The notes beneath the pieces are model-generated. The model saw only the letters and a program-made list of their open reading frames with translations. It had not been told where the DNA came from and did not search any database. Positions 40,275-63,040 of a stretch of DNA of 64,000 nucleotides are shown in pieces. This DNA is from Jaapia argillacea MUCL 33604. Taxonomy: Eukaryota; Basidiomycota; Agaricomycetes; Jaapiales; Jaapiaceae. The position numbers and the translations under genes were made by a program. The stretch lies in contig KL197717.1 in the NCBI GenBank assembly GCA_000697665.1, positions 352,761 to 416,760 of the forward strand. Reading direction: 5' to 3'. Positions within the stretch are counted from its first letter, which is position 1. Every line of letters begins with the position of its first letter.

Positions 40275-42710
<2,436 letters not shown>

Positions 42711-42945: not shown

Positions 42946-45291
42946 TCAATACTCCCAGTGTCGAAGCTGAAGTTCCCCCCGAGCCTTGTTAATCTCATCC
43001 CTTTTCATTCTCGACCACACCACCCCTTGCGGCCCCCTCGGCGCATCTTGTGTAATCTTGCCCTTGCCTTTGTCCGGTCCCTTGTCCCAAAACCATTCCC
43101 AACTCTTGGACCGGCCGAAATCGATGATCCTGAAACTGGGAGTCTTGGTCGTTCGCAAAAGAGGGTGGGCGGTCAACGGTCCCGGTTGAATACAGATATT
43201 TCGAAGATAGATGGATCCGTGGACGACGTCCTCGAGATGAAGTCGGAGGAGAAGGCTCATACATTCACTCCTAACGTACGCCGGGGTTAGAGGCGAAACT
43301 TGACATGCGAGACACAAAGGTCCAAATGCCATGACGTACTTCTCATCTTTGGTCAAGGTTTCAGGTGTGATAGGCACTCCACATTGTTCCATCAACAAAA
43401 TTGGGCGACGTTCCACCTTGGGTTCGGCCTTTCTCTTTCCTCGCCTCACGTCACTGTCCTCATCTTCCTCGGCCGGCACCCAATACCCATAAAACTTGGG
43501 CACCACCGGGCATACGGGCGTCGGATACATAGAAGGTGTAACCAAGTTGTACCCGCACCAATCCTCCATCATGTGTTTGGGGAATTGGTTATAAATCTTT
43601 GCCTCGTTATCCAAAAGGGCCCTTGGTGAGTCGCCTCTAAAAGGAATTTTCGCTGCGATCGCGACTCGCTTGTTGGGAGAACGGGCAGAGAGGGGACGAG
43701 GTAACTTCATCTCAGCGCGGTAGACGCAAGAATGGTGCCCTTCGCCTAGAATATCGGTGTCGCTCAGGTAGAGGTGACCAATTCGGGGGGGAGGCGCGCC
43801 CGCGGAGTCTTCAGACCTATCGGATGGTTGTTCCGAGTTGAAAACAGGGTAGATGCGCCTGTACTTGACAGGTTTCTTCTTATTCGCCTTTTGTTCGACC
43901 TTCGCAGATTTCCGACCGTCACCCTCTCCAGAAGCCTGTGACTCTTCCCCCGCTTTTCCACTCATATGACCTCCAGAAGTAAGATCATCCGGATCGTGCA
44001 CCATCAAGAAGTCGGGAAAGTACTGTTCGGGGATGAACTCTTCTAGCTTCGGGATCTCAGGAAGGTGTTTGACAGCTTTGGAATCAAGTTCGCAGACCTC
44101 TAGAAAGTGAAAGCGGGTACCTTGTCCGTTGGATTCAGTATTGCTAGGTTCAAACGTCTCTGCGACGATGGGGTCGGATGGACCATGGGGATCAGCGGCA
44201 TCGGCGGATTCTGGGTGCCGAGGGGGCTCTTTGGAGTCGGAGGGGAGAAGAAGTGAGTCGGTAGTCGCAGGATCGTTATCTGCGGCAGGCAACGGAGGCA
44301 ACTCAACGGGGTGCTTGGGGTCGACGAGATCAATGAGGTCGGCGAGTGGATAAGCATGGAGGGTCTTTCGAACGTTATTCCTTTCCGGCGCGCTGACCAG
44401 GCGAGGTTCGCTTGTCGAGGAGGTCGCGATTTCGGCAGCTACCAGCGTCGAAGAATCGAACGGAGGAACAGCACCACCGGGTGTAGTAGTACACTTCTTT
44501 TTCATTCCCGCCTTCTTTTTCCCCTTCCTTTTGGCCTTCTTCCTTTCCTCCTCCGCCAATCTGGCTTCATCCTTGGCTTTGGCAGCCGCATCATAGCGAG
44601 AAGCAGCAGCAACGAGACCGTCCCGCATATTAGGAGGATAGTTCTTCAAAAGATCAGCTCTGATGACTGGGTGTGCTGTAACGAAGAGTTCCTCTCGGAT
44701 CTTGGGCGACCATACCATAGGAGCAACCATTCGAAGGCCGTTGAAATTCAGATATATCGGATTATCTGGATCGTTGGGGACCGTCATTGGCTCATCGTCG
44801 GGCAGGTCGCTCGGAGGATCCGTGACTGGGGAAGATTGGTCGAGGGAGTGGGTGGAAGAAGCGTCACTGAGTTCATCGCTGGATTCCTCTGAGCTATCAC
44901 CGTCAATCAACACCTCATAACACCCATCATGGTCTGAACCTTCGTCTACAGCACCCAGGGGAGGAGAAACCTTGATACCACGAGGTAACTTGAGGAGAGG
45001 CCAAGGCCTCCTCAGTCGAGGAATAGGTTCTGGCTCATCAAACTCGTCCTCAGTATAGTCCACCCCATACTCCTTGATCATACTTCGAGACCACGCAGTT
45101 ATCAAGGTGGAAGGGGCCTTACGCTCCATCCAGAAGAAATCCAGTAGCGAGTGACCCCAGATGATTTGATTCGGCGGACGTACACCCGCAGGAGGAGGAC
45201 GGGGAAGGAATGAACCATCGGGATCGCGGCGCCACCAGGCGGTGAGCACACGTTTACGCTCAACAGGTTCAGCATTCTTGTTATGGGACAT
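42946..45291 (-). CDS. Kinase-like protein K-A with a degenerate catalytic loop
   Basis: About 758 residues, with one intron of 69 bases at 43271-43339. The N-terminal domain starts after RRDPDGSFLPRPPPAGVRPP and IIWGHSLLDFFWMERKAPST. An acidic, Ser-rich stretch and a Lys-rich coil (residues about 260-280) lead to the kinase-like half. This has LEEFIPEQYFPDFLMVHDPD; a glycine-loop-like LGEGHHSCVYRAEM; AIAAKIP, in which the VAIK lysine is probably kept; LLDNEAKIYNQFP; and LLMEQCGVPI. The catalytic loop reads VVHGSIYLRNI instead of HRDxxxxN, and the metal site is kept as IIDFGR. The missing Asp suggests a pseudokinase or an atypical (aminoglycoside-type) mechanism. This family is recalled as widespread in Agaricomycetes without known function. 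It is a paralogue of K-B and lies 333 bases downstream of MFS transporter M-A on the same strand. Confidence 0.82.
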   Translation of the reverse strand: MSHNKNAEPVERKRVLTAWWRRDPDGSFLPRPPPAGVRPPNQIIWGHSLLDFFWMERKAPSTLITAWSRSMIKEYGVDYTEDEFDEPEPIPRLRRPWPLLKLPRGIKVSPPLGAVDEGSDHDGCYEVLIDGDSSEESSDELSDASSTHSLDQSSPVTDPPSDLPDDEPMTVPNDPDNPIYLNFNGLRMVAPMVWSPKIREELFVTAHPVIRADLLKNYPPNMRDGLVAAASRYDAAAKAKDEARLAEEERKKAKRKGKKKAGMKKKCTTTPGGAVPPFDSSTLVAAEIATSSTSEPRLVSAPERNNVRKTLHAYPLADLIDLVDPKHPVELPPLPAADNDPATTDSLLLPSDSKEPPRHPESADAADPHGPSDPIVAETFEPSNTESNGQGTRFHFLEVCELDSKAVKHLPEIPKLEEFIPEQYFPDFLMVHDPDDLTSGGHMSGKAGEESQASGEGDGRKSAKVEQKANKKKPVKYRRIYPVFNSEQPSDRSEDSAGAPPPRIGHLYLSDTDILGEGHHSCVYRAEMKLPRPLSARSPNKRVAIAAKIPFRGDSPRALLDNEAKIYNQFPKHMMEDWCGYNLVTPSMYPTPVCPVVPKFYGYWVPAEEDEDSDVRRGKRKAEPKVERRPILLMEQCGVPITPETLTKDEKYVMAFGPLCLACQVSPLTPAYVRSECMSLLLRLHLEDVVHGSIYLRNICIQPGPLTAHPLLRTTKTPSFRIIDFGRSKSWEWFWDKGPDKGKGKITQDAPRGPQGVVWSRMKRDEINKARGELQLRHWEY

Positions 45292-45624
45292 CGATGAAAA
45301 ACGAAAACAAGGAGCGAACAGCGTTGAAAGGGCCTCATATACACATGAAGCTTGGACAATGCCATTCCTAGACACAACGAGGGGGATCAGACGATCAGTT
45401 TATGTCATGAGGCCTGAGGCCTGGAGGTGTGACGCGTGACGCGTGACGGTTTAGCTCTTCCTTCTTCTGTCAAAGTTCCTCAAATTCGATAGCATGGAAA
45501 GGTAAAGCCGCAATAGATATGAGAGCGTCTGCCTGAATTTACATGTACCTTGTTCGCGTTTCAGTGAATCGGAGCCTTCTCTCTTGTCACACCAGAAGGC
45601 GGATCGTATTCCGTGCGACATGAA
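45292..45624. other. Short intergenic region between M-A and K-A
   Basis: 3' flank of M-A and 5' region of K-A, including the triple 7-base repeat listed next. Nothing else seen. Confidence 0.5.
45429..45449. repeat. Triple 7-base direct repeat upstream of K-A
   Basis: GTGACGC, GTGACGC and GTGACGG stand end to end 138 bases before the K-A start. They could be a compact array of binding sites for a bZIP or similar factor, or a short tandem expansion. Confidence 0.55.
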
Positions 45625-47842
45625 CTACTCGCGTCGCCTATGACTAGCGGGGACAAGAGCCCACAGCCCAACCATGACACACATCATTGTCACCAACCTG
45701 ACCAAACATATGAGAAACCAAACAGCCAACTTCGGATGAATACATCCACTCACAATGGTTGCAGGCTCCCGATCCCAAACTTACTAGCCAATACACCAGT
45801 GGTGAACGGCAAAACAGCCGATCCAGCTTGACCGACGCCCGCAATCCACCCAACAGCACCTGTAATCAGCCATTTTGGCAGAATTCTTGATGCGTGGCTG
45901 ACTAGGATGGGGTACATAGGTCCGAGTAGAACGCCGATGATTGCGACAGCAACCGCATTTTCAATCAAGCTTGGGACTGCCCAGATTGTGATTTCAAGCC
46001 TGTTCAAAGAAAGATGAATCAGTATTAAAAGGCGGACACCGAGTTGGGCGACCCACCCAATAGCAATCAGGGCATAAATAAAGAGAACTCGTCGTTCTCC
46101 GACCTGAACAAATTTCAGCATACGAAACCAACATCGTATCCAAGAAACGAACTTTGCGATTGATCCAAAGCAGCGAGAGGCGCCCAATAGTCAGACCTGA
46201 AAGTAGTGTAGGGTTCAAAGTTCGGTACTAGAAGAAATGGGGTTGCACCTGCGAAGAACCCCGAGGAAATGTAGCCGGAGGAGGGCCCACCACCACGTTC
46301 ACGCTCAATGAACGTTACAATCCAACCTAGGTAAAATAGTAGATTCCGTGAGAGTCACGGGCTTCAAGACTCACCACCAAGGGTGACCTGTTGAGAATCT
46401 TCAATAACAATATCAAAATGTAGGACTTGGCCTTACCTCGACGCCCACGTAGATCAAGCAAAACAGGGCTAGGAAATGAATGGATTTTTGACCCATCATA
46501 TGTCGGTACTTACTTCCTCTCATAGTATCCGGTTCTCCGGGAGCTTGTCCCGCTTCCGCCATCGCCTCTGATAGGAGCTGAGTATGCAATGACCAAGAGC
46601 CCAAAGTTCGCTCACCTTCTTGGGTTTGGAAACGGAACACAGCACTGAGCACGATAGTGTTGAGGACGGCCATACCGACTGAAATGAGGAAGTGGAAAGA
46701 CCAGTGACGTGTCCCGGAAAAGTAGGTGGCCGCTAGAGGGGCGGAGAAGGCACCCAAACCTGTGAAGATGCAATTTGAAGGTCAGCGAAGTGCAAAGATG
46801 GCATCGACTGCTGCTCACCGTATGCACCATGCAGGAGTCCGAGCTTCATCGACGTATCGCCTGAGAGACTGCTTACAAACCCATTAGCCTGGGCGTTCTA
46901 TCGTATTAATGTAAAATGAACTCTGTGGTTTCGAAGAGATGGTGGCTAGATAGTTACCTGAAGGGCAATTCCGAACCCTCCAATGCAGTATCCGACGACT
47001 ATCACGGGGAAGGGACCAGCGGGTGCTTGCATCGAATAAGTGATGATCTGACAGATAGATCCTAGGGAAGAAATCCATTGAGACACTGTGGACAATACTG
47101 ATGGCTTTCGGTACCTAGAACCAGCACCTGAAAGGGGAATTCGGTCAGAAACGCATAGCATATATAAAGTGATTAATACCTTTCCAAGACCTAGTTTGTC
47201 GTTGAGCCATACGTTGGCAACGGCGCCAGATAGAAATCCCTGTAAGTAGTACCATTTATATGTCAGAGGCAGATCAATGTGGGAAACGGTACTTGCAATA
47301 CAATTCGACACGAAAATCAACGAAACGGTAGCAAACCCGATCTACGCACAATCAGACAATGACGATGGGTGGGATAGCATGAAATATACATGGTAGAAAT
47401 TTTGGATGGCAGGAAGGAGAGGTCCTGTGGACCCATCGTTCCAACCTTCGAGATAGAGGCTCCAACACAGTGCAGCAAACTGAATATACTCCTTGCGATG
47501 AGAGTTGGATGCCTCTCGAGGGACTGATGGTGGGTACTCCCGCTCCAGGACGCCCTCGCCAACTGAACGGATAGAAGGCGGAGCAATTTGATCACGCTCG
47601 ACGGGCTCAAGATCCACTTCTGACGTGCCCGCGGGATTGCGCACCTCCACCACAGACAGCGCTGAGTGGTGTCGAGAAGGATTAGGGGACGATGGTGGAT
47701 AGGTGACGGAAGAAACTCCTTCAGAATGCGCTTTTATGTTCATCACGTCTCGAGAAGATGCGTGAGCTGGACGGGGAGATGTCAGCGTTGGTCGCTCGCA
47801 TCCCGCACTGGCAGAGAGAACGGCAAGATTGAGCAGCTCCAT
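45625..47842 (-). CDS. MFS transporter M-A (fucose-permease/BSC6-like)
   Basis: The cytosolic N-terminus is unusually long (about 140 residues, Ser-rich). The first helix follows with YIQFAALCWSLYLEGWNDGS and TGPLLPAIQNFYH. Spliced exons give IGFATVSLIFVSNCIASTV, GAVANVWLNDKLGLGKV (the loop 2 motif with N-D-K-L-G), GGFGIALQ, and FSAPLAATYFSGTRHWSFHF. A cytosolic loop carries GEPDTMRGSKYRHMMGQKS, then FLALFCLIYVGVEV, SSGYISSGFFAGLTIGRLSL and VGERRVLFIYALIAI. PSLIENAVAVAIIGVLLGPM, VGWIAGVGQAGSAVLPFTTG and, across the last intron, FGIGSLQPLLVTMMCVMVGL close the protein (stop at 45625). The GLNDGxxGPLLP/GYxSSGFFxG pattern is that of fungal fucose-permease-like MFS proteins. Substrate unknown. Paralogues: M-B and M-C. 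Confidence 0.85.
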
Positions 47843-48257
47843 CTCGACAATTGAGTCCTGTTATGAGAGAGCTGGCTCGTCAGTGAATAAGTATCGTACT
47901 CAAGCAAGGCTGCAGTTTCTACTAGTTGAACTGGCGTCCCGAGAAATGGATGTAGGATGAAACCTAGTAGCTAGTGCTGGTGTCGACGATATCAAGCCTT
48001 CCGCAATGCCAGTGCGATTGAGAATAAAAACACCGTTGTAGACGGGGTACATTTCTCGGCGATTCCGGTCGAGGGCCGTTCTCAATCTTTTGCCACAACT
48101 TGAAACAAGCGCGACAACAAAAACAAATCTCCATCATGAGAGTCCATGTCACCTTCTGCATGGTCGAACCATGCGACTCTCACGAATGCTATTAATCTCA
48201 CGGATGTCCTTTCTATAGCAAAGATTAGTGGATGCTACCTCCACCGCAGTCTCCATC
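47843..48257. other. Divergent promoter between M-A and T-A
   Basis: The end nearest T-A contains stretches (around 48055-48090 and 48235-48257) that match the sequence before T-B (50415-50459). The duplication that made the two T genes therefore included at least some 5' flank. No gene seen. Confidence 0.55.
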
Positions 48258-49825
48258 ATGGAGTCCAGTCGGGAAGATGCAGAAGGGGACACCGAGTCCG
48301 CCTTCCGTCGCTCAGCCCAAACTCGACTCCCGTCAAGAAGAACGTCCTGGCATCCTCAATTCACTGGCTATCGAGCTCTCGTCATCCTTCTCACAGTTGG
48401 CTTTGGTTCCTTGAAAGCGATTTCGTCCTACACGAACTTGACAATTGTGTCGACCGCCGTAGAATGGATTTTTGGGGTTGTCGTATATATCGGGCAAGTC
48501 TGGTGGTCTTGCTGCCTTAATTTCATCTCCTCAACTGAAGGGAAGGTTATTCTGGTTGGGTTTATACGAAACCACGCACCCAAGCGCCATCCCTTGGTTG
48601 TTTGAAAGGGATTACACCCACAGCGTTAGACGGTTCGTCAACCCTCCAGCTGTCGTGACCAACCGTGGCGGCACCATTAAATACAACGTCGCCGAATCCC
48701 ATCAGAACCGAAGAGCCACACTCACAGCGTACCGGATCTTGGTCAGCGTATTGGTTGCGAGCCTTGGCCTGACGAAAGCATCCCTCGCCTATCAAGGATA
48801 TTCGGCCGTCCCTACCACCTTGGATTGGATATCGGGCACTCTATTAGCTGTCGGGTGTGTCAGTTTCAGACTTTCGCGTCGGATCGGCGTTTATCATACC
48901 TATGAAGTCTTTATTGGCTTGGACTCTATGAAAGCAGTCCTGACAACCCATTGCCTCTGTTGTTTACCGCGGATTATCAGCCTGCTATCGTAATTGGTGA
49001 GTTTTTATCAGGAAACCTAGACTACCCTAGCTAGCTCATCTGGCAGAACTAGGTGTATCCCTCATCGGACGTCTACTACTCCTCTCTCTCCTCTCGAGTT
49101 GGGGTTACTTCTGGTACTGGATTTGGACTCATTGGGGGGCTGGACTGTTGGGCTTCGAGCCTCCGACGTTTAGCTCTCCGACATTGAACACCTTGTATGA
49201 ACTGTCCTTTCCATTCTCTTGGATTCCCTTCGTAGGCATCGCTGAGCTCTTCGCCGTTGTTCCTGGCATCTTGTCACTCGTCTCCACCATCAAACTTATT
49301 TCGACTCCAGCGAGATCAGTACCGACGTATGTGGTCGGTCGGGCCTCATTGCCTGGTGCCTCCAATGGCTTCTGGGCCTCTCTCCCATTGCCTTCGCGTG
49401 CTCGCCTCGAATATGCTTCTAGATGGCTCGTCCCCTGTGAGTTCTCGATCTTACCCTTCTTCTACTGATCGATCTTCTGACGTCTCTTAGGCATGCACAT
49501 CGCAGGACACGTTTTTATTCATCTTATCCTGATGGGGCTTTCGCTCACCTGGGAAATGTTCGCACTTTTCGTCTTTCTGTCCATGTGGGCATCCCCGCAC
49601 ACTGGTTTCTTTTCATTAGTTGGCGCGGTTCTTGTTTCTATAGTACCATTCGGCTGGATTCTTTTGGGTTTGCCACTGTGCCTGTCGGTCCTCGTATCGT
49701 TTATAGCGCCTTTACTCGGGAGCAAGCCCCACTGGGAGTTCAGGAGGTCTCTAACCTCACTCTGGATATTCGTCAGTAGATTTGGCACAGACAATCCCGG
49801 TGGCAGATCCGATCGACTTGCTTAG
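48258..49825 (+). CDS. Multi-pass membrane protein T-A with internal repeat
   Basis: Five exons give a protein of roughly 440 residues with about eight hydrophobic segments. A polar N-terminus (MESSREDAEGDTESAFRRSA) leads to an internal repeat. Unit 1 reads FTGYRALVILLTVGFGSLKA, TAVEWIFGVVVYIG, LFWLGLYE and PWLFERDY. Unit 2 reads LTAYRILVSVLVASLGLTKA, TTLDWISGTLLAVG, LYWLGLYE and PLLFTADY. Then come LIGRLLLLSLLSSWGYFWYW, LEYASRWLVP, HVFIHLILMGL and a last pair of helices. The first intron (48494-48545) starts GCAAGT, not GT; splicing there restores IGLFWLGLYE. I recall similar repeat-built membrane proteins from Agaricomycetes but no function. T-B is a close paralogue in tandem. Confidence 0.8.
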
Positions 49826-49880
49826 ATACTAATGATCATGTTCAAGACCACGAATCATTAATCATCATCCACCACAGCAA

Positions 49881-50052
49881 TGGGATCCCAAGTCAGACTG
49901 CTACACAACAATTATTGGGCAAATGTGTCAAAACTCAAGAAGTGGAATCAAAAGCTCATTCCGAGCCTGGTTAATCTCGTTTCCACAAATCTGCCACCAC
50001 TCACTGAGCCTATTCCCCCCGTCGCCATCATCTTTGTCACCACCTTTTTGTG
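49881..50052 (-). pseudogene. Remnant of the 3' end of a K (kinase-like) gene
   Basis: These bases match the last part of K-B and its 3' flank (52492-52660) almost letter for letter, including the reverse-strand codons for NQARNELLIPLLEF and the stop. The similarity ends abruptly near 50052, so about 1.9 kb of the gene is absent. It follows T-A just as K-B follows T-B, which marks it as the far edge of a duplicated T+K unit. Confidence 0.8.
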
Positions 50053-50458
50053 AGAACTCCAGGGTTTGGACTTGCCGAGATGTTGAAGATGTCGAGTAGA
50101 TAGTCGAAACATCGGGAAAAACACCAAGATAGAGCTTCGAGACTGATAGCTTTGCTGATGTCGAGATAGACGGTGTGAAAGTACCGGTGTTTCAAAGACT
50201 GGGGATAAGGAGTAAAAGACATGGGGTATTTATACTAATTAGGATTCGGATTCAGAGCGAGGGAGCGGAGAAAGGAAAGTACATACAAAGGACTACATAC
50301 ATAGGAAATCATGAGTCTCGAGGTGATGTAGTAGCTGAAGATCCTCGAGGTGATAATGTCAAGGGTGATCGTGAAGATAATGGATGGATCTCGGGGATGC
50401 ATAGCTCGGCAATTCCGGTTGAGAGGCCATTCTCGTTGCTGCCTCCACCACAGTCTCC
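50053..50458. other. Spacer between the K remnant and T-B
   Basis: No gene recognised. The last 50 bases resemble the 5' flank of T-A. The rest matches nothing else in the window that I could see. Two CTCGAGGTGAT copies (50318-50328 and 50344-50354) form a short direct repeat. Confidence 0.45.
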
Positions 50459-52017
50459 ATGGAGGCGAGTCAGGAAGATGCAGAAAGGGACTCTGACTTC
50501 CGTCGCTCAGCCCAAACTCGATTCCCGTCAAGAAGAACCTCCTGGCGTCCTCAATTCACTGGCTATCGAGCTCTCGTCATCCTTCTCACAGTTGGCTTTG
50601 GTTCCTTGAAAGCGATTTTGTCCTACAAGAACTTGACAATCGCGTCGACCACCGTAGAATGGATTTCCGGGGTTGTCATATATGTCGGGTGAGTCTGGTG
50701 GTCTTGCTGCCTTGTGCGCATCTCCTCAACTGAAGGGAAGGTTATTCTGGTTGGGTTTGTATGAAACCGCCCACCCAAGCGCCATCCCTTGGTTGTTTGA
50801 AAGGGATTACACCCACAGCGTTAGACGGTTCGTCAATCCTCGAGCTGTTGTGACCACCCGTGGCGGCATCATCGAATACAACATCGCCGAATCCCATCAG
50901 AACCGAAGAGCCACACTCACAGCGTACCGGATCTTGGTCAGCACACTGGTTGCGAGCCTTGGCCTGACGAAAGCATCCCTCACCTATCAAGGATATTCGA
51001 CCGTCCCTACCACCTTGGATTGGATATCGGGCACTCTATTAGCTGTTGGGTGTGTCAGTTTTAGATTTTCGCGTGGGATTGGCGTTTATCATACCTATGA
51101 AGTCTTTATTGGCTTGGACTCTATGAAAGTAGTCCTGACAATTCATTGCCTCTGTTGTTTACCGCGGATTATCAGCCCGCTATCGTGATCGGTGGGTTTT
51201 TATCAGGAAATCTAGACTATCCCAGCTAGCTCATCTGGTAGAGTTAGGTGTATCCCTCATCGGGCGTCTACTACTCCTCTCTCTCCTCTCAAGTTGGGGT
51301 TACTTCTGGTACTGGATTTGGACTCGTTGGGGGGCCGAACCGTCGGACCCCGAGCCTCAGTTTAACTCTCCGACATTGAACACCTTGTATGACCTGTCCT
51401 TTCCATTCGTCCGGATTTTCACCGTAGGATTCGCTGTGCTCTTGCCCGTTGTTCCTGGCATCTCGTTACTCATATCCACAGTCAAACTTATTTCGACTCC
51501 AGCGAGATCAGTAGCGACGTATTTGGGCGGTCGGACGTCTTTGCCTGGTGCCCGCGATGGCTTCTGGGCCTCTCTCCCATTGCCTTCGCATACTCGCCTC
51601 GAATATGCTTCTAGATGGCTCGTCCCCTGTGAGTTCTCGATCTTATCCTTCTTCCACTGATCGATCTTCTGACGTCTCTTAGGCCTGCACATCTCAGGAC
51701 ACGTCTTTATTCATCTTATCCTGATGACGCTTTGGCTTACCTGTGAAATGTTCGCACTTTTCGCCTTTCTGGCCATGTGGGCATCCCCGTACACTGGTTT
51801 CTTTTCAATAGTTGGCGGGATTTTTATTTCCATATTTCCCTTATACTGGATGCTCGTGTGTTTGCAACTATGCCTGACGGTCCTCGCATCGTTTATAGCG
51901 CCTTTACTCGGTAGTACGCCCCACTGGGAGTTTAGGAAGTCTTTAACCGCTGTCTGGATAATCCTCAGTACATTTGGCACAGACGATCCCGGTGGCACAT
52001 CCGGTCGACTTGCGTAG
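50459..52017 (+). CDS. Multi-pass membrane protein T-B with internal repeat
   Basis: Close paralogue of T-A with the same exon layout and the same repeat units (FTGYRALVILLTVGFGSLKA with WISGVVIYVG, and LTAYRILVSTLVASLGLTKA with WISGTLLAVG). It keeps LFWLGLYE, PWLFERDYTHSVRRFVN and the C-terminal helices ending GTDDPGGTSGRLA. The first intron (50689-50740, 52 bases, the same length as in T-A) has the regular donor GTGAGT. Differences from T-A are scattered and mostly keep the frame, so both copies look functional. It lies upstream of a LINE fragment and of K-B on the other strand, with which it is tail to tail. Function unknown; residence in a cell membrane is inferred from the hydrophobic segments. 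Confidence 0.8.
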
Positions 52018-52083
52018 ATACCAATGATCATGTTCAAGACCACAATTCATTAATCATCATCCACCACAGCAATGCGATCCCAA

Positions 52084-52491
52084 CCAGCCTGCGGAGAACA
52101 CGACGAGACAGTACAACATTTCCTCCTCCGCGGCATTGCCCAGCTTACGCTCAACAACGCCACTTTCTGGACCGCTCACTACGTCGCGACGCTCGGAATC
52201 TCGGATACCTGCTCACATGTCCAGTAGCATTCGAAGCCCTATTCAAATACATCACGGAGACGAAACGATTTGAGAGATCGTTTGGGAACGCACAGGGATA
52301 GAGACTCAGCGGACGGACCATTGCCACCTATATCACCATGAACTCTCATGGCCTCGTAGCTCATGCTCACCATAGGCCTTTGTTTGGATCGACACTCACG
52401 GACTCGCGCACCTGTAGAACTACAAACTTGCATGTTATATCTGACATACGGCAATGCCACAACAGATAATAAATCGGATTTACAAACAAAC
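52084..52491 (+). mobile_element. 5'-truncated LINE fragment with target-site duplication
   Basis: About 408 bases lie between two exact copies of ATGCGATCCCAA (52072-52083 and 52492-52503). The left part encodes the end of a fungal non-LTR retrotransposon polyprotein in at least two frames: CGEHDETVQHFLLR (the CxxC...HFLxxC-type tail), then RNLGYLLTCPVAFEALFKYI followed by TETKRFERSFG and a stop. The right end is A-rich (AATAAATCGGATTTACAAAC). The matching place after T-A (about 49881-49892) has one copy of the 12-mer, with one mismatch, and no insert. This is therefore an insertion made after, or in only one branch of, the local duplication. Confidence 0.85.
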
Positions 52492-52539
52492 ATGCGATCC
52501 CAAGTCGGACTACTACACGACAATCAATGAGCAAATGTG

Positions 52540-54561
52540 TCAAAACTCAAGAAGTGGAATCAAAAGCTCATTCCGAGCCTGGTTAATCTCGTTTCCACAA
52601 ATCTGCCACCACTCAAGCCTATTCCCCTTGTCATCGTCGTCTTTGTCGCTGCTTCTTGGGTTTCGAGCCTTATCCTCGTACCAATTGAGATACTCTGCCC
52701 GTCCAAAATCGATGATCCGAAAGCTGGGAGTCTTGGTGGAACGCATAAGAGGATGAGCGGTCAAGGGTCCCGGTTGCGTACAAACGTTGCGGACGTAGAA
52801 CGAGCCTTGAACAAAGTCGGCGAGGTGGAGGCGGAGGAGAAGGCTCAAACACTCCGTTCTGAAGAACGATGTCAGACACGATACGATGCATAGTCCAGGT
52901 CCAGACATGACCACCTACCTCTGATCTGAAGTGAAGTCTTCAGGGTCGATAGGTGTGCCACATTCCTCGATCAACAATATCGGACTACGTGCCGAGTCGA
53001 TTCCCTCCCCACACTTTCTTCCCTCATCTACTTCCGCTTCGTCAACCGGCAACCAGTACCCATAAAACTTCGGCACGACTGGGACGACGGGCATCGGAAA
53101 CCTACAGGGCGTGATTAAATTATATCCCCACCAATCCTCCGTTAGGTCCTTCGGGAACTCGTTGTAAATCTTCGCCTCGTTATCCAACAGCCTTCTAGGA
53201 CCGCTGCCCGCTCTGGCGAGTTTCGCTGCGACCGTTACTCGTTTATTGGGAGAGCGAGCGGATAGAGGCCGAGGTAGTTTCATCTGTCCTCGGTAGACAT
53301 GAGAATGGTGTCCCCTGCCAATCTTATCGGATGCGCTCAAGAAGAGGTGGGCGATTCGAGAAGGCACGACAGAGTCCCCAGCCTTACTCGTCGAATCGAA
53401 TACGGGAAAGACACGCTTGTACTTGGTAGGTTTCGCGTCCGACGCCTTTCTCGGGCTCACCTCGCTCCCCGCCTCATCTTCACTCCGTTCTCCTTGAACA
53501 GTGAGATTATCCGGGTCATGTACCATCAAAAAGTCTGGATAGTACTCTTCTGGGATGAACTCCTCTAACTTCGGAACTGGGGGCTGTCTCTCAACAACGC
53601 TGGGATCCAAGTCATGGACGATGATGGTGGGTCTACCGGCTTCGTCAGTGCTACGAATCTCAGCTTTAGGAGGAGAACAATGGGCGGCAGTTGCTGCGTG
53701 GATGGGATCTGTAGAGGGCCCAGCATGAACATTTGCAGGTGGATTCACCGGAGGAGTTGTATCGGAGGCTGCACCGCTCTTCTCCTTATCACTGCACCTC
53801 TTTTTTGCTTTCTTCTTCGTCCCCGTCGTCCCGTTGCTCTTGGCGTCAGCTTTGGATTTCGCAGCCGCATCGTAGCGGGCGGCGGCAGCGGCAAGACCCC
53901 ATCGTAGATTGGGCGGGTAACTCTGCAAGGCCTCAGCCCTCTGGGTAAAACTCGTGGCAGCGAAGATCTCTTCGCGGATCTTTGGCGCCCAGACCATGGT
54001 TGTAGTGAAGCGATGGCCGTCGAAGTTACACTGCATAGGGTTATCGAGACCTTCGGGGACCACCATTGGCTCGTCGTCGACCTGATCGCCTGGGGGTTCC
54101 GCGACTTTAGAATCATCATTGTCGAGGTGCGGGGAAGAACAGTGATCGGCTTCGTCGCAAGACGACTCCTCGGAGCTCTCATCCACCAATTTCTCATAAC
54201 ACCCATCATGGTCCGAACCCTCGTCAACTGCGCCCAATGGCGGAGAAATCTCGATGCTGCGGGGCAGCTTGAGGATAGGCCACGGTCTCCTCACCCGGGG
54301 GAGAGGTTCATGCCACTCGAAAAGCTCCTCGGTATAGTTCTCTCCGAATTCCTTTACCATACTACGCGACCACGCCGTAAATAGGTTAAACCCTGGCTTT
54401 CGCTCGATCCAGAAGAAATCCGAGATCGAATGACCCCAGATGATCCCATTCGGTGTGCGTACACCTGCAGGAGGTGGACGGGGGAGTAGAGGCCCATCAG
54501 GGTCGCGACGCCATTGTATGAAGATGTCGCGTTTTCGCTCGGGGGTGTCGGTGTTGGACAT
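52540..54561 (-). CDS. Kinase-like protein K-B with a degenerate catalytic loop
   Basis: About 653 residues in two exons, with a 60-base intron at 52859-52918, the same place as in K-A. The N-terminus matches K-A (RRDPDGPLLPRPPPAGVRTP, IIWGHSISDFFWIERKPGFN). The kinase-like half has LEEFIPEEYYPDFLMVHDPD, KIGRGHHSHVYRGQMKLPRP, VAAKLA, LLDNEAKIYNEFPKDLTEDW, LLIEECGTPI and RLHLADFVQGSFYVRNVCTQ. The HRD motif is thus VQGS; RIIDFGRAEY keeps the DFG. It is about 100 residues shorter than K-A, mainly in the disordered middle. MFS gene M-B lies upstream on the same strand, the same neighbour relation as K-A with M-A. In addition to the catalytic Asp loss, the two copies differ in the loop (HGS or QGS), so phosphotransfer by the usual mechanism is doubtful. 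Confidence 0.82.
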
Positions 54562-54605
54562 GGGTGGAAGGGGAAGTCAGGAAGGGATGACAACTCGAAG
54601 TGCCC

Positions 54606-54612
54606 TTTATAA
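54606..54612 (-). promoter_or_regulatory. TATA box of K-B
   Basis: TTATAAA on the minus strand, 45 bases before the K-B start codon, followed by a short pyrimidine-poor leader. Confidence 0.45.
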
Positions 54613-54837
54613 CACAAAGCATACGGAAAGTGGCTCATGCCACGAAGGTGGATCACTTCCTCATGAAGGAATTGGGCCCACCCACTAAGTAGCGGTAACC
54701 TCACGTGGATCAAAACTAAGAGCCGCGGAGCTTTGAGACACACAAAGACCTTCGGCGAACGATTGACAGAAAAGGTTTGCCGTGCAGACGTCGACGAAGG
54801 GGTCGGAATCTAGAGCGACACCTGAAATAATCCTACA

Positions 54838-55310
54838 TTGGATCAAATGCCAGTAGGACCGAAGGCTTTTGAGAAAGATTACACAAAGCGCGTGCGTTTG
54901 GCAGGCCCTCGTCAGTCGAACCCCTCCGAGATAGCACACGAAACAAAGGAGGAATCCTCACCGTATCGCGTTTTGTTCAGCGCGAAAGCCGTTGGGTTTA
55001 ATTTGGTTTGCCCGAGGCGCTTTAACCTTCGCGATCGCAGACCTAGCACCGCCCGGAAGGCGTTATGTCTTCCTTATTTTCCTCAGTTTGCCAACATGAT
55101 TTCAAGTGACGTGCCACGGCAAGTGTCTGGTATGATTTACTCGCAGGCGATCCATTTGAAGCCTTCTCGTTCCCACATAGATCACTGCTCATATATGTTG
55201 CTTTCTTCACCATCAGCGCAACGAGTCTGGTCACCCATGAAGCTTCGGCTGAGTATCTTCCCTCACCTTGATATCCCGGGCAGACTAAGCCACTGCCACC
55301 GACCTTAACA
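54838..55310 (+). pseudogene. Relic 1 of a T-family membrane-protein gene
   Basis: The plus strand encodes AFEKDYTKRVRL, then IAHETKEESSPYRVLFSAKA, and later, in another frame, LLIYVAFFTISATSLVTHEA. The first piece corresponds to WLFERDYTHSVRR and the following segment of T-A/T-B. The last resembles the membrane segment after the HVFIH part. The parts are in the right order and orientation, but the frame is not continuous and the 5' exon is missing, so I call it a relic. Confidence 0.6.
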
Positions 55311-55537
55311 CTCACTTCCAGTACGAATGACAGCTCCGAATCGGCCGTTTGATGGGATTGGTTGAGTGTTTCTTCTATGGTCGGGATCTAGAAATGGATG
55401 CATACACAGTCGGGTTTAGGGCCACAAGGTGATCACGGTAGTTGGGATCGAGGGATGTCACAAGAAACGTATCGTCGAGATATATACAAGGATCAAAACT
55501 GAAGACTCGACTTGGCCAAATGATTCCCCAGAAAACT

Positions 55538-58001
55538 CTAATCAACACGACGTTGACCATTCGGCACGATGGCCCAAATCGCGACCATGACGGCCATCAT
55601 GACCACCACGCTACGTCGTAGAATTAGTAGCGCTCGACCACATAAAAAAAAGACTCACAGTGGCTGAAGAGACCCTATACCATATTTTGCGGCTGCAGCA
55701 GGGACATCAACTCGAATCCGGTTCGAAAATAAAGACTGCCAAGCTCCTTACCCAAGATTCCTGTGGTGAACGGGAAGAGTGCCGATCCCGCCTGACCAAC
55801 TCCTGCTATCCAGCCCATAGAGCTCGTGAGGAGAGGCGCTGGGAGAATCTTGGTCGCATGGTTGGCTATGATGGGATACATAGGCCCCAGCAAGAGGCCG
55901 ACGAAGGATACGGCTACGGCATTTTCAATGAGATCTGGTACCAACCAGACTGTAATTTCGAGACTGCAACTAGCATTAGACAACAGGGATAACGGAAATT
56001 AGGGTGGGCATACGCAATAGCCGCGATGGCATAAAAAAAGAGGATCCGCCGTTCACCGACCTGGGTGTCAACGGTCAGTGGGTCCAAGGGTGGCTGAAAA
56101 CTGAGAAGCTGGATTACTTTGCGATTGAGCCATATCAGCGCGATCCGCCCAACTGTCATGCCTGGTCACAACGTGAGTAAAGTTAGGAACACGACATGAA
56201 CTACATAGTGACCTACCTCCGAAAAACCCAGATGATACATACCCAGATGAAGGCCCGCCATGCCGCTCTCGCTCGATGAAAGAGACGCTCCAGCCTGTCA
56301 GAATATACCTGAGGTTACGTTGAATCATATGGGGTAGAATGGCGCGAACCTCCTATTGTCACCTGGAGTGGAAGGAAAGTCAAAATGACGTTGTTGGGCC
56401 TCAGGGGCCCCTGCGTACCTCAACCCCAACGTAAATCAGCGCGAAGATCGCCAAGAGATGTAAGGATATTTGCCCCATCAACTGACGATACTTGCTTCCT
56501 TCCCCAGTCCCGACCTCCCCCGGACCTTGGCCCACTTTAGCCATTACCTCTGTCAAGATGTGAATTTGAGGCGCCAAAGAAAAGATGGGAAAAAACTGAC
56601 CATCTTGTGTCCCGAAACGGAAGACGGTTGTGAGAAGCGCAGTATTGGAGACCGCTATCCCGACGGAGATGAGGAAGTGGAAAGACCAATGCTCGGTATC
56701 AGCAAAGTGGGTGGCGACTAGAGGGGCGGTAAAAGCGCCGAGCCCTTCACGGAATTTAGCAAAGAGTGGTGAAGGGACGAGGGAACAGAAATTACCGTAA
56801 CAGGCGAGCATGACGCACATTTTTGTAGACGCATGTTCTTTGAGACTGGCGACGAACCCGCAAGCTTGAGCGTTCTAGAGGATGAAGGTATGACACGCCG
56901 AACATGCTTTCATCGATCGTATTGGTCAGAACGCACCTGTAGAGCGATACCAAAGCCTGCGATTCCATAGGCGACGACCATTAACGGGAACGGACCAGCG
57001 GGGGCTAAGATGGCGTATGCAATGATTTGGCATAGTGATCCTGTTGCAATTATTCAGATATAGGGAAAGCCCGAGGGTCAAACTCTCATTACCGAGAACC
57101 AAGACCTGTAGGGGCGGCGTGTAAGAACGACCCCGTACAATATAACAGCCAAAGTGCTGACCTTGCCGAGCCCCAGTTTATCGTTCAGCCATACATTGGC
57201 CACTGCTCCGCTAAGAAACCCCTGGTAAACTCGATTCAGATTGGCCATGTCAGAGCAACCAGCACACTCACAACACAATTCAGAATAAAAATGCAGGAAA
57301 CAGTAGCAAAGCCGATCTAGTTTCTAGCTTCAGAAGGTCGCAAAAGATGACGACAGGATAAGACGAACGTTGTAATACTGCTGAAAGGCAGGAATTAGGG
57401 GCCCCGTCGTACCATCGTTCCAACCCTCCAGAAAGATGCACCAACACAAAGCCGTGAATTGGATGCGACTGTTTCGGCGAAATCGTGACAATTCTATGGC
57501 TGACTGAAGAAGCCCTTGAGATACCACGTCTTCACCAATTACACGAGGAGATTTTTCAGCCTTGACGTCGTACACTTGGTCCTCGAGGTCGGCGACCTCT
57601 GATGGACGGTCTTCCAAGTTCGAATTCACCCCGGGTAGTTCAGACCGTCTCCGTACGCGCTCCGTCGATGAGACATGTGGGTGTAAACCACTTGCAATTT
57701 CCAAGGTTGTCACCTTGTCTAGACATGGATCAAGTGGGCGAGGGTCAAAGTGAGATGCCCGGACACTCGAATGGGGTGGTCGCGATTGATCAAGAGTCGA
57801 TGGGAGCGTTGGTAGTTGAATAGAGATCGTGTCAAGAGAAACGGAATCATCGATCGCAAACTCGTCCCCTTCAACATCGGGAGGGATGGTACGAATTTCA
57901 GATCGCAGGGATCTAAGAATGGCAGCACTTGGAGACTCCTCGCAATCCCTGTCACGAGTCGTTGACGGTATGTGGAGGGTACCAGCACAGAAGGAGGGCA
58001 T
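55538..58001 (-). CDS. MFS transporter M-B (fucose-permease/BSC6-like)
   Basis: Paralogue of M-A with the same exon order. A cytosolic N-terminus of about 190 residues starts MPSFCAGTLHIPSTTRDRD and is rich in Asp, Glu, Ser and Arg (RRRSELPGVNSNLEDRPSEV). The first membrane segment has IQFTALCWCIFLEGWNDGTT and GPLIPAFQQYYN. Later exons show GAVANVWLNDKLGLGKV, FTAPLVATHFADTEHWSFHF, GSKYRQLMGQISLHLLAIFA and SSGYVSSGFFGG. VGERRILFFYAIAAI, IENAVAVSFVGLLLGPMYPI and MGWIAGVGQAGSALFPFTTG follow. The last intron restores KYGIGSLQPL and VVVMMAVMVAIWAIVP, with the stop at 55538. The DKLG and GYxSSGFFxG motifs are those of a proton-coupled sugar-type MFS; the substrate is unknown. It lies between K-B and the almost duplicate M-C on the same strand. 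Confidence 0.85.
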
Positions 58002-58917
58002 TCTGAGTAAGAGAAGTTCCCCAGTGCCGCTGGGCTGCGAGACTTATAAGGAGGAATGTACGACACGATCTGCAACAGTGTATGGCGAAATCGAAGGTCC
58101 CTTGCACATAAACGGAGTGAAAGACCCAGATAATAAATAGACGCTTCTTCGCTGGAAGTTTTTAGAACTTGAATGATAAGGCGGCAAAAGGAAAGCCGCG
58201 ATGCAGAGTTTAGTCAACTTCATGACGGCTGTTCGGTCCGTCGGAGATGACCTGATATCCTGCCTTCAGCTACGTGTAAGATGTAAAGGGTGCGCTACGT
58301 ACCTCAAACAGGTAGGTACGGACACGAAGATGCCAATCTCCTCTCGCGGTGTTTTACTTGGGACTGAAGTCTCCTCACTCGAGGAGGTCATCTTACTTGA
58401 TGGTCTGTATGTTTTCAGAGCGGAGCTTCGTAGTGGGAGGGTCTTCGGTTCAAAGATAAAATCAGCTCCCCAAAGCAGGAATCCTACATCCAAATTTGCT
58501 TTGGAGCAAGGGATCGCTGAGTAGCTGTGAAAGCCACATCTCTTGAGGTATCCATGGGAGAAGAACCGGAGGACCCAATCCCGGATACCCGCAGGCCCAT
58601 TAGTAAGACAAGGGAGCTCTCGCGAGCACATCTCGGAGGTTGGGTACTACGAAGTATGGGATGTTGAGATTGCCGTGAAGTCGCCGAGCCTGCGTAGGTC
58701 CAGCACTCTGACTGATCACTGATCAGAATCCTTCCTTCAAGCTTCAAGGCTTCAACCGCGGACGTGCCAAGTCGTAAGCCGAGAATACTAGGAGAGACTC
58801 TGAGAGAGAGAAAGACCGCCGGCGACCGATTACGTTCCACAATCGTCTGAAAGGGTCGCAAGTAACCAAGTATCGATCGAGTCCTCAGTCGACTGAGGTT
58901 GTAATTGCATCGTAATT

Positions 58918-59520
58918 TTGTTCCCTTGTTCCAATCGCCGATCCCTCGAGTGTCAGTGGATTTACGGAGTGCCTATATCTTGGGTGTGTTTATTGGGATC
59001 GATTCATCGTCTGGCATTCAAGTTCTCATTTGCTGGATTCCGAAGGAATAAGTGCTGCGCAGAAGCTTTTGAAGAGGATTACACGAACATGGGTGTTTGG
59101 TGGGCCCTCGTCCGTCGAACTCCTCCGATAGTACACGAAACGAAGGAGGAATCCTCACCAGATTCCCATGAGGCCCTCCGCTCACAGCATATCGCGTTTT
59201 CGTTACCGCTAAAGTCGTAGGGGCACAGTCGCGTTCATTTGACGCGGATGTCACAATTGTCACATGGGTGGTCACTGACTGACCGCGGTTTTGACCTTCG
59301 CGGGAAACTAGTTGGACAGACCTGAAGGCGACACATTTTCGTCAAACTGCCAACCTGCTTTCGATGTGGGCTATTGTCTAGTATGATTCGCTCGCAGGCG
59401 ATCCATCTGAAGCCTTCTTGCTCCCACTTAGTTCAGTGCTCATCCATGCTGCTTTCCTCACCATTCGCGCGATCTGGCCATGCTTCTGCTGAGCATCTCA
59501 CCCTAGTATTCTCCGTTTCG
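58918..59520 (+). pseudogene. Relic 2 of a T-family membrane-protein gene
   Basis: Pieces in T order on the plus strand: CQWIYGVPISWV (compare TAVEWIFGVVVYIG of T-A), EAFEEDYTN (compare LFERDYTHS), IVHETKEESSP (also in relic 1), and a hydrophobic VLIHAAFLTIRAIW near 59430-59475 (compare VAFFTISATS of relic 1). Stops and frame shifts interrupt it. It sits next to M-C as relic 1 sits next to M-B, which supports joint duplication. Confidence 0.6.
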
Positions 59521-62500
59521 GGCAGACGAAGCCACCACCAACCGTAGCACCCACCCCTTCCAGTACCAATGACGTCTCCGAGTCGCCATTAGATCAGAGT
59601 GGTTAGGTGTTTCATTTTGGTAAGCATCTGGAAATGGATCCATACCCCGTCGAGTCTGGGGCCGCAAAGGCGGGTACGGTATTTGACGTTGGGATTGAGG
59701 CAGGACACATAGCATACAAGGACCAGAAATGAAGCGACTTGGCCTGACTGGTGTACGCATCGACAAATGATTTCCCTGAAGACTCTAATCAACACGACGT
59801 TGACCATTCGGCACGATGGCCCATATCACGACCATGATGGTCATCATAACCACCACTCTGTCGTAGAATTAGTAACGCTCGACCAGATAAACGGGCAACT
59901 CACAGAGGTTGAAGAGACCCTATACCATACTTTGCGGCTACAGCAGAGACATCAACTTGAGTCAGATTTGACAATGAAGACTGCTCAGCTCCTTACCCAA
60001 GATTCCTGAGGTGAACGGGAAGAGTGCCGATCCCGCCTGACCAAATCCTGCTATCCAACCCATAGAGCTCGTGAGAAGCCACGCTGGGAGAATCTTGGTA
60101 GCATGGTTGGCTAAGATGGGATACATAGGTCCGAGCAAGAGGCCAACAAATGATACGGCTATGGCATTTTGAATTAGGTCTGGTACCAGCCAGACTGTAA
60201 CTTCGAGACTGTAATTAGGCGTTAGACAACGGGGATATCGAAAATGAGTATGGACATACGCCATAGCCGCGATGGCATAAAAAAAGAGGATCCGTCGCTC
60301 TCCGACCTGGGTGCCAAGGGTCATTGAGTCCGAGGCTGGCTGAAGACGTAGAAGCTAGCTTACTTTGCGGTTAAGCCATATCAGCGCGAGTCGTCCAACT
60401 GTCATACCTACCCACAACGTGAGCAAAGAGACGAAGGCGACATGAACTACATAGTTTCCTACCTCCGAAAAACCCAGATGATACATACCCAGATGAAGGC
60501 CCGCCATGCCGCTCTCGCTCGATGAAAGTGACGCTCCAACCTGCCAGAATATGGCTGAGATTATGTTGGATCGGATGGGATAGAACGACGCGAACCTCCT
60601 ATTGTCACCTGGAATGGTAATAAAGTGAGAATGGCGTTGAGTTGAGTCTCAAAGACCCTTGCGTACCTCAACTCCAACGTAAATCAGAGCGAAGAACGCC
60701 AATAGATGTAAGGCTTTTTGCCCCATCAACTGACGATACTGGCTTCCTCCCCCAGTCCCGACCTCCCCTGGACCTTGGCCCGCTTTGGCCATTACATCTG
60801 TCAAGACATTAATTGAGGCTCGCAAGAGAAGACGGGAAAACTTGCCATCTTGTGTCCTGAAACGGAAGACGGCTGTGAGAAGCGCAGTATTCGAGATCGC
60901 TATCCCAACTGAGATGAGGAAGTGGAAAGACCAATGTCGAGTATTAGCAAAGTGGGTGGCGACTAGAGGGGCGGTAAACGCGCCGAGCCCTTTACGAACT
61001 TCAGCGGAGAGTGATGGATGGACAAGGGAACGGAAATTACCATAACAGGCATGCAAGACGCACATTTTGGTGGATGCATGTTCTTTGAGACTGGCGACGA
61101 ACCCGCAGGCTTGCGCGTTCTAGAGAATGAAGGTATGACACGCCGAAAACGCTTTCATCAATCTTGTTAGGTCGGAACGCACCTGCAGAGAGATACCGAA
61201 ACCTGCGATTCCATAGGCGACGATCATTAACGGGAACGGGCCAGCGGGGGCTAACATGGCATATGCGACGATTTGACATAATGATCCTGTTGCAATTGAT
61301 CAGATACGGCAGAAGCCAGAGGGTCAAACTCTCATTACCGAGAACCAAGACCTGTCGGGGCGATGTGTAAGAACGACTCCGTAAAATATAACAGCCAAAG
61401 TGCTGACCTTGCCAAGCCCCAATTTGTCGTTCAGCCATACATTAGCCACTGCCCCAGAAAGAAAACCCTGGTAAACTCAATTCAGATGTGCGGTCATATC
61501 AGAGCAACCAGTGCACTCACAACACAATTCAGAATGAAAATGCAAGAAACAGTCGCGAAGCCGATCTAGTTTCTAGCGTCAGAAGGTGGCGAAAGGTGGC
61601 GAAAAGAGCAGACGAACATTGTAATAGCGCTGAAAGGCAGGAATCATGGGCCCAGTCGTACCATCGTTCCAACCCTCCAGAAAGATGCACCAACACAAAG
61701 CTGCGAATTGGATGCGACTGTTTCGGCGAAATCGTGACAACTCTGTGGCTGACTGAAGACGCTCTTGAGATGCGACGTCTTCACCAGTTACACGAGGAGA
61801 TTTTTCTGACTTGACGTCGTACACTTGGTCTTCGAGGTCGGCGACCTTTGATGGACGGTCTTCCAAGTTCGAATTGATCCCGGGCAGTTCAGACCGTCTC
61901 CGTGTGCGCTCCGTCAATGCTATGTGCGGAAGTAAACCACTTGCAATTTCCAACGTCATCACCTTGTCTAGGCATGGTGGGTCAAGGTGAGATGCCCGGA
62001 CGCTCGAATGGGATGGTCGCGGTCGGTTAAGAGTCAATGGCAGCGTTGGTAGTTCAATAGAGATCGTGTCGAGAGATACTGAATCATCGATCGCAAACTC
62101 GTCCCTTTCGACATCAGGAGGGTTGTTACGAATCTCAGATCGTAGGGATCTAAGAATGGCAGCACTTGGAGACTCCCCTCCATCCCTGTCACGAGTCGTT
62201 GACAGCCTGTGGAGGGTACCAGCACAGAAGGAGGGCATTCTGAGGAAGAGAAGTTCCCCAGTGCTCACGCTGGGTTGCGAGGCTTATGAGGAATGGACGA
62301 CACCATATCTGCAACAGTGAACGGCGAACTCGAAGGTCCTTTGCACATAAATGGAGTGTAAGACCCAGATAATGAACACTTCTCCACTAGTCATTGAAGT
62401 CTTCAGAACCTGAACGATAAGGTGCAAAAGGAAAGCCGCGATGTGTAGTTTAGTCAACCTTCATGACGGTTGTTCGGTCCGTCGGCAATGACCTGACGCC

Positions 62501-63040
62501 CTGCCTTCAGCTACGTGTAAGGTTGTAAAGGGTGCGCTACGTACCTCAAGACCTGCCCTGCCGCACAAGCCAGTAGGCAGGAACGGACACGAAGATGCCG
62601 ATCTATCCTCGTGGAGTTTTACTTGTGGCTGGAGTCTCCTCACTCAAAGCAGTCATCTTTCTGCGATAGTCTGTACGTTTTACGACTGAACCTTCGTAAG
62701 TGGAGGGGTTTCGGTCCACAGATGAAGTCCGTTTCCCAAGGTAGGATTGATGTGTGCCATATTGCTTTGGAACGAGAGATCGCTGGCTCTCATCGCGTCC
62801 CCTAAACTATCCACGGGAGAGGAAAAGGAGGACCCAATCCCCGATCCCCAATTCTCGCTGGTCCATTATGAGGATAAAGGAGCTCAGGCTCCCGCGAACA
62901 AATCCGGGATGTCGTAGAGATTGGTAGTGGGTAGAAGTCTTGAGATCACCGCGAAGTCACCGCTCTGCGCATCAGTGCAAGTAGGATGAGCGCTTGGACT
63001 GATCGCTAATCCACTGATCAGAGAAGTCTTGCTTCAACCA
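59040..63040. repeat. Tandem unit 2 (part of T relic 2 plus M-C and flanks)
   Basis: Second copy of the unit described at 54838-58760. It differs by many scattered substitutions and by small insertions, for example about 30 extra bases near 62550-62580 carrying CCTGCCCTGCCGCACAAGCC. Edges are approximate. Confidence 0.75.
59785..62238 (-). CDS. MFS transporter M-C (fucose-permease/BSC6-like)
   Basis: Very similar to M-B in sequence and in exon positions. The N-terminus reads MPSFCAGTLHRLSTTRDRDG, the first membrane segment IQFAALCWCIFLEGWNDGTT and GPMIPAFQRYYN. Further on come FTAPLVATHFANTRHWSFHF, GSQYRQLMGQKALHLLAFFA, VGERRILFFYAIAAM, IQNAIAVSFVGLLLGPMYPI and MGWIAGFGQAGSALFPFTSG. The end matches M-B, with the stop at 59785. 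Compared with M-B the differences are mostly conservative, including IENAVAV to IQNAIAV inside a helix, so both copies appear intact. The frame is open upstream of ATG 62238 without an ATG. The extracellular or vacuolar substrate cannot be read from the sequence. Confidence 0.84.

Follow-up and report, generated by a model that had tools for sequence, protein, structure and literature searches.

A block of seven genes from three unrelated families lies in the window, that is, the whole stretch of 64,000 nucleotides that was analysed, which corresponds to C9:352761-416760 in a genome of 43.7 Mb and 95 contigs. The order from left to right is K1, M1, T1, T2, K2, M2 and M3, where K denotes kinase-like genes, M MFS transporters and T repeat-built membrane proteins (Table 1). 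K1, K2 and M1 to M3 are on the minus strand and T1 and T2 on the plus strand. A K fragment lies in the gap from T1 to T2, and T relics lie between K2 and M2 and between M2 and M3. The gene models were spliced by hand from the DNA, with GT-AG or GC-AG introns, and all seven form a complete frame from ATG to stop. The inventory of the first-pass annotation (two K plus a remnant, three M, two T plus two relics) is present in full, although the signal of the T relics is weak, and the orientation that it described, with every K and M on the minus strand and every T on the plus strand, holds throughout. The joint local expansion that it proposed agrees with the detectable paralogy of the window, which is confined to the block: when the whole window was compared with itself at the protein level (open stretches of at least 60 aa, E 1e-6), both sides of all 148 off-diagonal matches lay beyond position 42500, and the off-diagonal BLASTN self-matches (E 1e-5) all fell within 43111-62885. 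The block had been placed at 42946-63040; it stands as a block, with an upper limit closer to 62885. A literature search returned no published account that we recognised as this block.

Table 1 Genes, relics and duplicated segments of the block (positions in the window)
Feature	Position	Strand	Description
K1	42946..45291	minus	2 exons (43340-45291, 42946-43270); 758 aa
M1	45625..47842	minus	14 exons; 509 aa; MFS transporter; one GC-AG intron
Duplication A	48233..52647		48233-50038 and 50437-52647; T and K2 3' tail; ~90% identity
T1	48258..49825	plus	5 exons; 456 aa; repeat-built membrane protein; GC-AG first intron
K fragment	49880..50038	minus	copy of K2 3' end; ~110 coding bases and flank
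Dispersed repeat at T-segment junction	50039..50436		six further partial matches: C17, C34, C27, C21
T2	50459..52017	plus	5 exons; 453 aa; segment with 90% DNA identity to T1 segment
Non-LTR retrotransposon 3' end	52084..52491	plus	5'-truncated; flanked by two ATGCGATCCCAA copies
K2	52540..54561	minus	2 exons (52919-54561, 52540-52858); 653 aa
T relic 1	54826..55300 (about)	plus	C23 T paralogue match, E 1.4e-6; 0/500 shuffles
Duplication B	54865..62885		54865-58619 and 59065-62885; T relic and M; ~82% identity
M2	55538..58001	minus	15 exons; 569 aa
T relic 2	58950..59440 (about)	plus	DNA relative of T relic 1
M3	59785..62238	minus	15 exons; 565 aa; one GC-AG intron

The kinase-like motifs of K include G-x-G, AAK and DFG, which were picked out by eye only. 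The loop that, on a motif reading, would occupy the catalytic loop position is HGSIYLRN in K1, in place of the HRDxKxxN of active kinases, and QGSFYVRN in K2. The aspartate of the HRD motif is absent from K1 (HGS), from K2 and from a third full locus, K3 (C33:158387-160812), the latter two having QGS, and DFG is retained in all three. Neither K1 nor K2 had any match in a Pfam scan, and a PDB sequence search gave no match for K; hhalign of K against seven FunK1 pieces returned a probability of 0.2%. The best candidates for K loci in a protein search of the genome are K1, K2, the fragment and K3, with protein identities of 55% (K1-K2), 56% (K1-K3) and 58% (K2-K3); in the kinase-like half, K1 is 64% identical to K3 versus 58% to K2. 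K is thus the exception to the rule that the nearest copy is the local one, K3 on C33 being about equally near.

M1, the M protein included in the Pfam scan, matches PF07690 (E 2.5e-26), and M2 and M3 are tied to the MFS family through their 60% identity to M1. The single PDB row returned for M1 was at chance level and was rejected. Other M loci among the best candidates are M4 and M5, both on C9, and lone weak rows on C19 and C1. With M2 DNA as the query, the matches are confined to C9 and comprise M3, M4 and short stretches of M1 and M5. The M2 intron that matches the GC-AG introns of M1 and M3 starts with GT, as does the T2 intron that matches the GC-AG intron of T1.

T1 has six hydrophobic segments, and the six rows of its PDB sequence search, all at chance level, were discarded. 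At the DNA level T1 matches T1 and T2 only, and the best candidates of the protein search outside the block are on C50, C12, C23 and C42. A separate group of four T-family loci, with no K or M match, is found at C50:211000-219200. The T1/T2 dN/dS is 0.65, with 51, 35 and 48 differences at codon positions 1, 2 and 3, and 81 amino acid changes were observed versus 90 expected at random (SD 4.8). The introns of the pair are 91% identical over 197 bases, which is near the value of the coding part. Random-substitution simulations left the frames free of stops in only 0.8% of 5000 runs. The T frames have been kept open and yet evolve fast, under weak constraint or diversification.

Duplication A spans a T gene together with the 3' end of K2, and the K fragment has 90% DNA identity to 52492-52647, which comprises the K2 3' end and its flank; the K remnant is therefore an overrun of the segment and not a lost K gene. 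The element at 52084-52491 is flanked by 12-bp repeats, ATGCGATCCCAA, at 52072-52083 and 52492-52503, and the T1 segment retains the unfilled site. Most other copies of the element share its 3' end, and a longer copy on C12 encodes RNase H and zf-RVT. The target-site repeat, the common 3' end and the RNase H/zf-RVT copy identify it as a non-LTR retrotransposon.

A third copy of the duplication B unit lies 63 kb away at C9:479138-481360, with an identity of 81% to the M2 unit and 83% to the M3 unit. This third copy is decayed, and its M gene, M4, has lost the 5' end, with 1628 of 2464 bases remaining. In the 10 kb around M4 no K or T match was found at E 1e-3. Within C9:475001-485000, M4 is flanked on both sides by copies of a gene that by eye looks coiled-coil; the two copies lie about 6.5 kb from each other, their identity is mostly 89-91%, and one is partly N.

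The T relics were assessed by the number of dinucleotide shuffles reaching the observed score. The C23 T paralogue detects T relic 1 (Table 1), with the best match to reversed relics at E 0.004, and with this query the observed score was reached by 6 of 500 shuffles for T relic 2 and by 149 of 500 for the M4-side relic. When the top scorer among 26 T queries was taken instead, 12/40 shuffles reached the score for T relic 2 and 2/40 for the M4-side relic. These two were accepted because their DNA is similar to that of T relic 1 (72% identity over 706 columns and 79% over 701, respectively). T1 and T2 as queries found T relic 1 at E 0.35-0.51, and the scores of either against three spacers were equalled or exceeded by 4 to 26 of 100 shuffles; in profiles built from T1/T2 and paralogues no relic stood out and the reversed window matched as well. 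Three of four control spacers were ordinary; the fourth, 45292-45624, beat its 40 shuffles (score 48 versus 47), compared with a score of 69 for T relic 1. The 5' flanks of M2 and M3 were also considered as T relics and rejected (37/40 and 20/40 shuffles).

Parts of the three relic copies carry T-like motifs in the order of the gene, but no copy has the full set. By eye, the stretch from YRVL to the next T motif is shorter in all three than in the C23 gene, and no second repeat core is recognisable in it. This motif reading suggests, short of proof, that the T relic was already damaged when unit B was copied. The relics adjoin M2, M3 and M4, so that T and M have been neighbours for a long time.

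Fourfold-site identity is 0.898 for T1/T2 (n=206) versus 0.807 for M2/M3 (n=285), and this difference indicates that A and B are separate events with two dates. The K1/K2 and M1/M2 duplications are old, with fourfold identities of 0.471 and 0.367 and dS of about 1.8 and 2.4, respectively, at which synonymous sites are near saturation. The K1-K2 fourfold identity (n=174) is somewhat higher than those of K1-K3 (0.40, n=200) and K2-K3 (0.41, n=184), which mildly favours the view that K1/K2 arose by local duplication. The dN/dS values of 0.20 for K1/K2, 0.13 for M1/M2 and 0.22 for M2/M3 indicate purifying selection on these K and M pairs, and the patch is therefore not debris.

The K, M and T protein searches covered the 43.7 Mb of this genome and scored the best candidates, so that distant members may have been missed; they found no second site where two of the families adjoin, save the T relic beside M4, which is itself part of segment B. 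The 18-19 kb surroundings of K3 contain no M or T, and the short flanks of M5 and of the T loci outside the block contain no other family of the three. By these searches, linkage of K, M and T does not recur within this genome.

We consider it probable that the block is a patchwork of local, interleaved tandem and segmental duplications. The patch would have grown from K, M and T genes that lay side by side, through the copying of segments some 2 to 4 kb long on separate occasions, with unequal exchange or something like it as the possible mechanism. Older events, in an order that we infer, would have produced K1/K2 and M1/M2. Event A would have copied a T gene with the K2 3' end, which left T1 and T2 as well as the K remnant, and event B a T relic with an M gene, giving the tandem M2 and M3 and the truncated M4 63 kb off. 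The retrotransposon would have inserted into one of the T segments after event A, the other dispersed repeat being at the junction. The segments, their breakpoints, their identities and the gene models are observed directly, and two segment pairs have traceable breakpoints, as in a local duplication cluster. The conserved orientation follows from copying in direct orientation, with no need for selection, and the reach of the copied segments into parts of two genes accounts for the recurrent neighbours of K, M and T. Presumably no joint selection acts on the three families. The first-pass annotation had suggested a module as the copied unit, which is supported in that the segments reach beyond a single gene, with the K2 tail next to T in A and a T relic next to M in B. 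A K-M-T module as that unit is not supported, since A and B, the two datable events, each copied one whole gene, not several intact ones, and are of different ages; nor is a T-M unit of intact genes, since its T half was seemingly broken before copying. A module is not required by anything found here in the block's own genome.

Alternatively, K and M, and perhaps T, could have formed an ancestral segment that was duplicated whole (K1-M1 with T1, K2-M2 with the T relic), T and M being later recopied singly; the module would then be a unit of history and need not be one of function. K1-M1 and K2-M2 share order and strand, which is what copying K and M together would produce, and both pairs are old and near synonymous saturation. 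M1-M2 identity is 69.6% versus 63% for M1-M5 and M2-M5, over the 369 positions onto which M5 could be projected, and the slight excess of K1-K2 fourfold identity points the same way. We nevertheless judge this history rather unlikely, because K1-K2 protein identity is no closer than that of the K3 pairs, K1 is nearer to K3 than to K2 in the kinase-like half, the fourfold identities of K1/K2 and M1/M2 are unequal, and T lies 5' of M1, yet the T relic lies 3' of M2.

The presence of seven complete frames in 20 kb, with K and M under purifying selection, would also be expected of a functional cluster of a transporter, a pseudokinase-like protein and a membrane sensor held together by joint selection. 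This is very improbable, since neither K3 nor M5 nor any T locus found outside the block adjoins another of the families, the T copies beside M2 and M3 are relics, and the dispersed M4 unit is decayed too. It is likewise doubtful in the extreme that K, M and T cooperate, for example in sensing or self-recognition, and that they are linked since variants must match their partners. Tandem repeats are a common place for assembly errors, but a false joining of repeats is scarcely conceivable here, given that the copies differ by 10 to 40% in DNA, that frames and splice sites are intact and that the retrotransposon occupies one copy of its site only. For the patchwork of duplications, the breakpoints, overruns and unequal ages explain most of the module-like appearance, and the block offers a worked case of how a seeming joint expansion of unrelated families can arise from neighbourhood alone.

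In Coriolopsis trogii, four HSP20 genes are described as a tandem duplicate cluster (PMC8552761), and the side-by-side paralogues of this fungal example are also seen here; in contrast to the cluster as described there, the block interleaves three unrelated families. A likeness to FunK1 can be drawn for K, as FunK1 is described as a fungus-specific kinase family grown by lineage-specific duplication (PMC3203195). The assignment of K to FunK1 was rejected, since K1 and K2 have no match to PF17667, the FunK1 profile, at E up to 10. All seven FunK1 loci fetched keep HRD, whereas K has HGS or QGS. K and T are two families unmatched in the Pfam set scanned, and may merit a search in wider fungal data.

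Fungal metabolic gene clusters can include their own transporter gene, and the block likewise has an MFS transporter gene adjoining unrelated genes. It differs from such clusters in that its genes include no recognised biosynthetic enzyme and no recurrence of their linkage was found in this genome. The PF17667 profile, which also gave matches in 4 of 14 control genomes, matched 66 stretches in this genome, 63 of them above the cut-off and none on C9; many of these stretches lie close together on C7, C4, C42 and C46.
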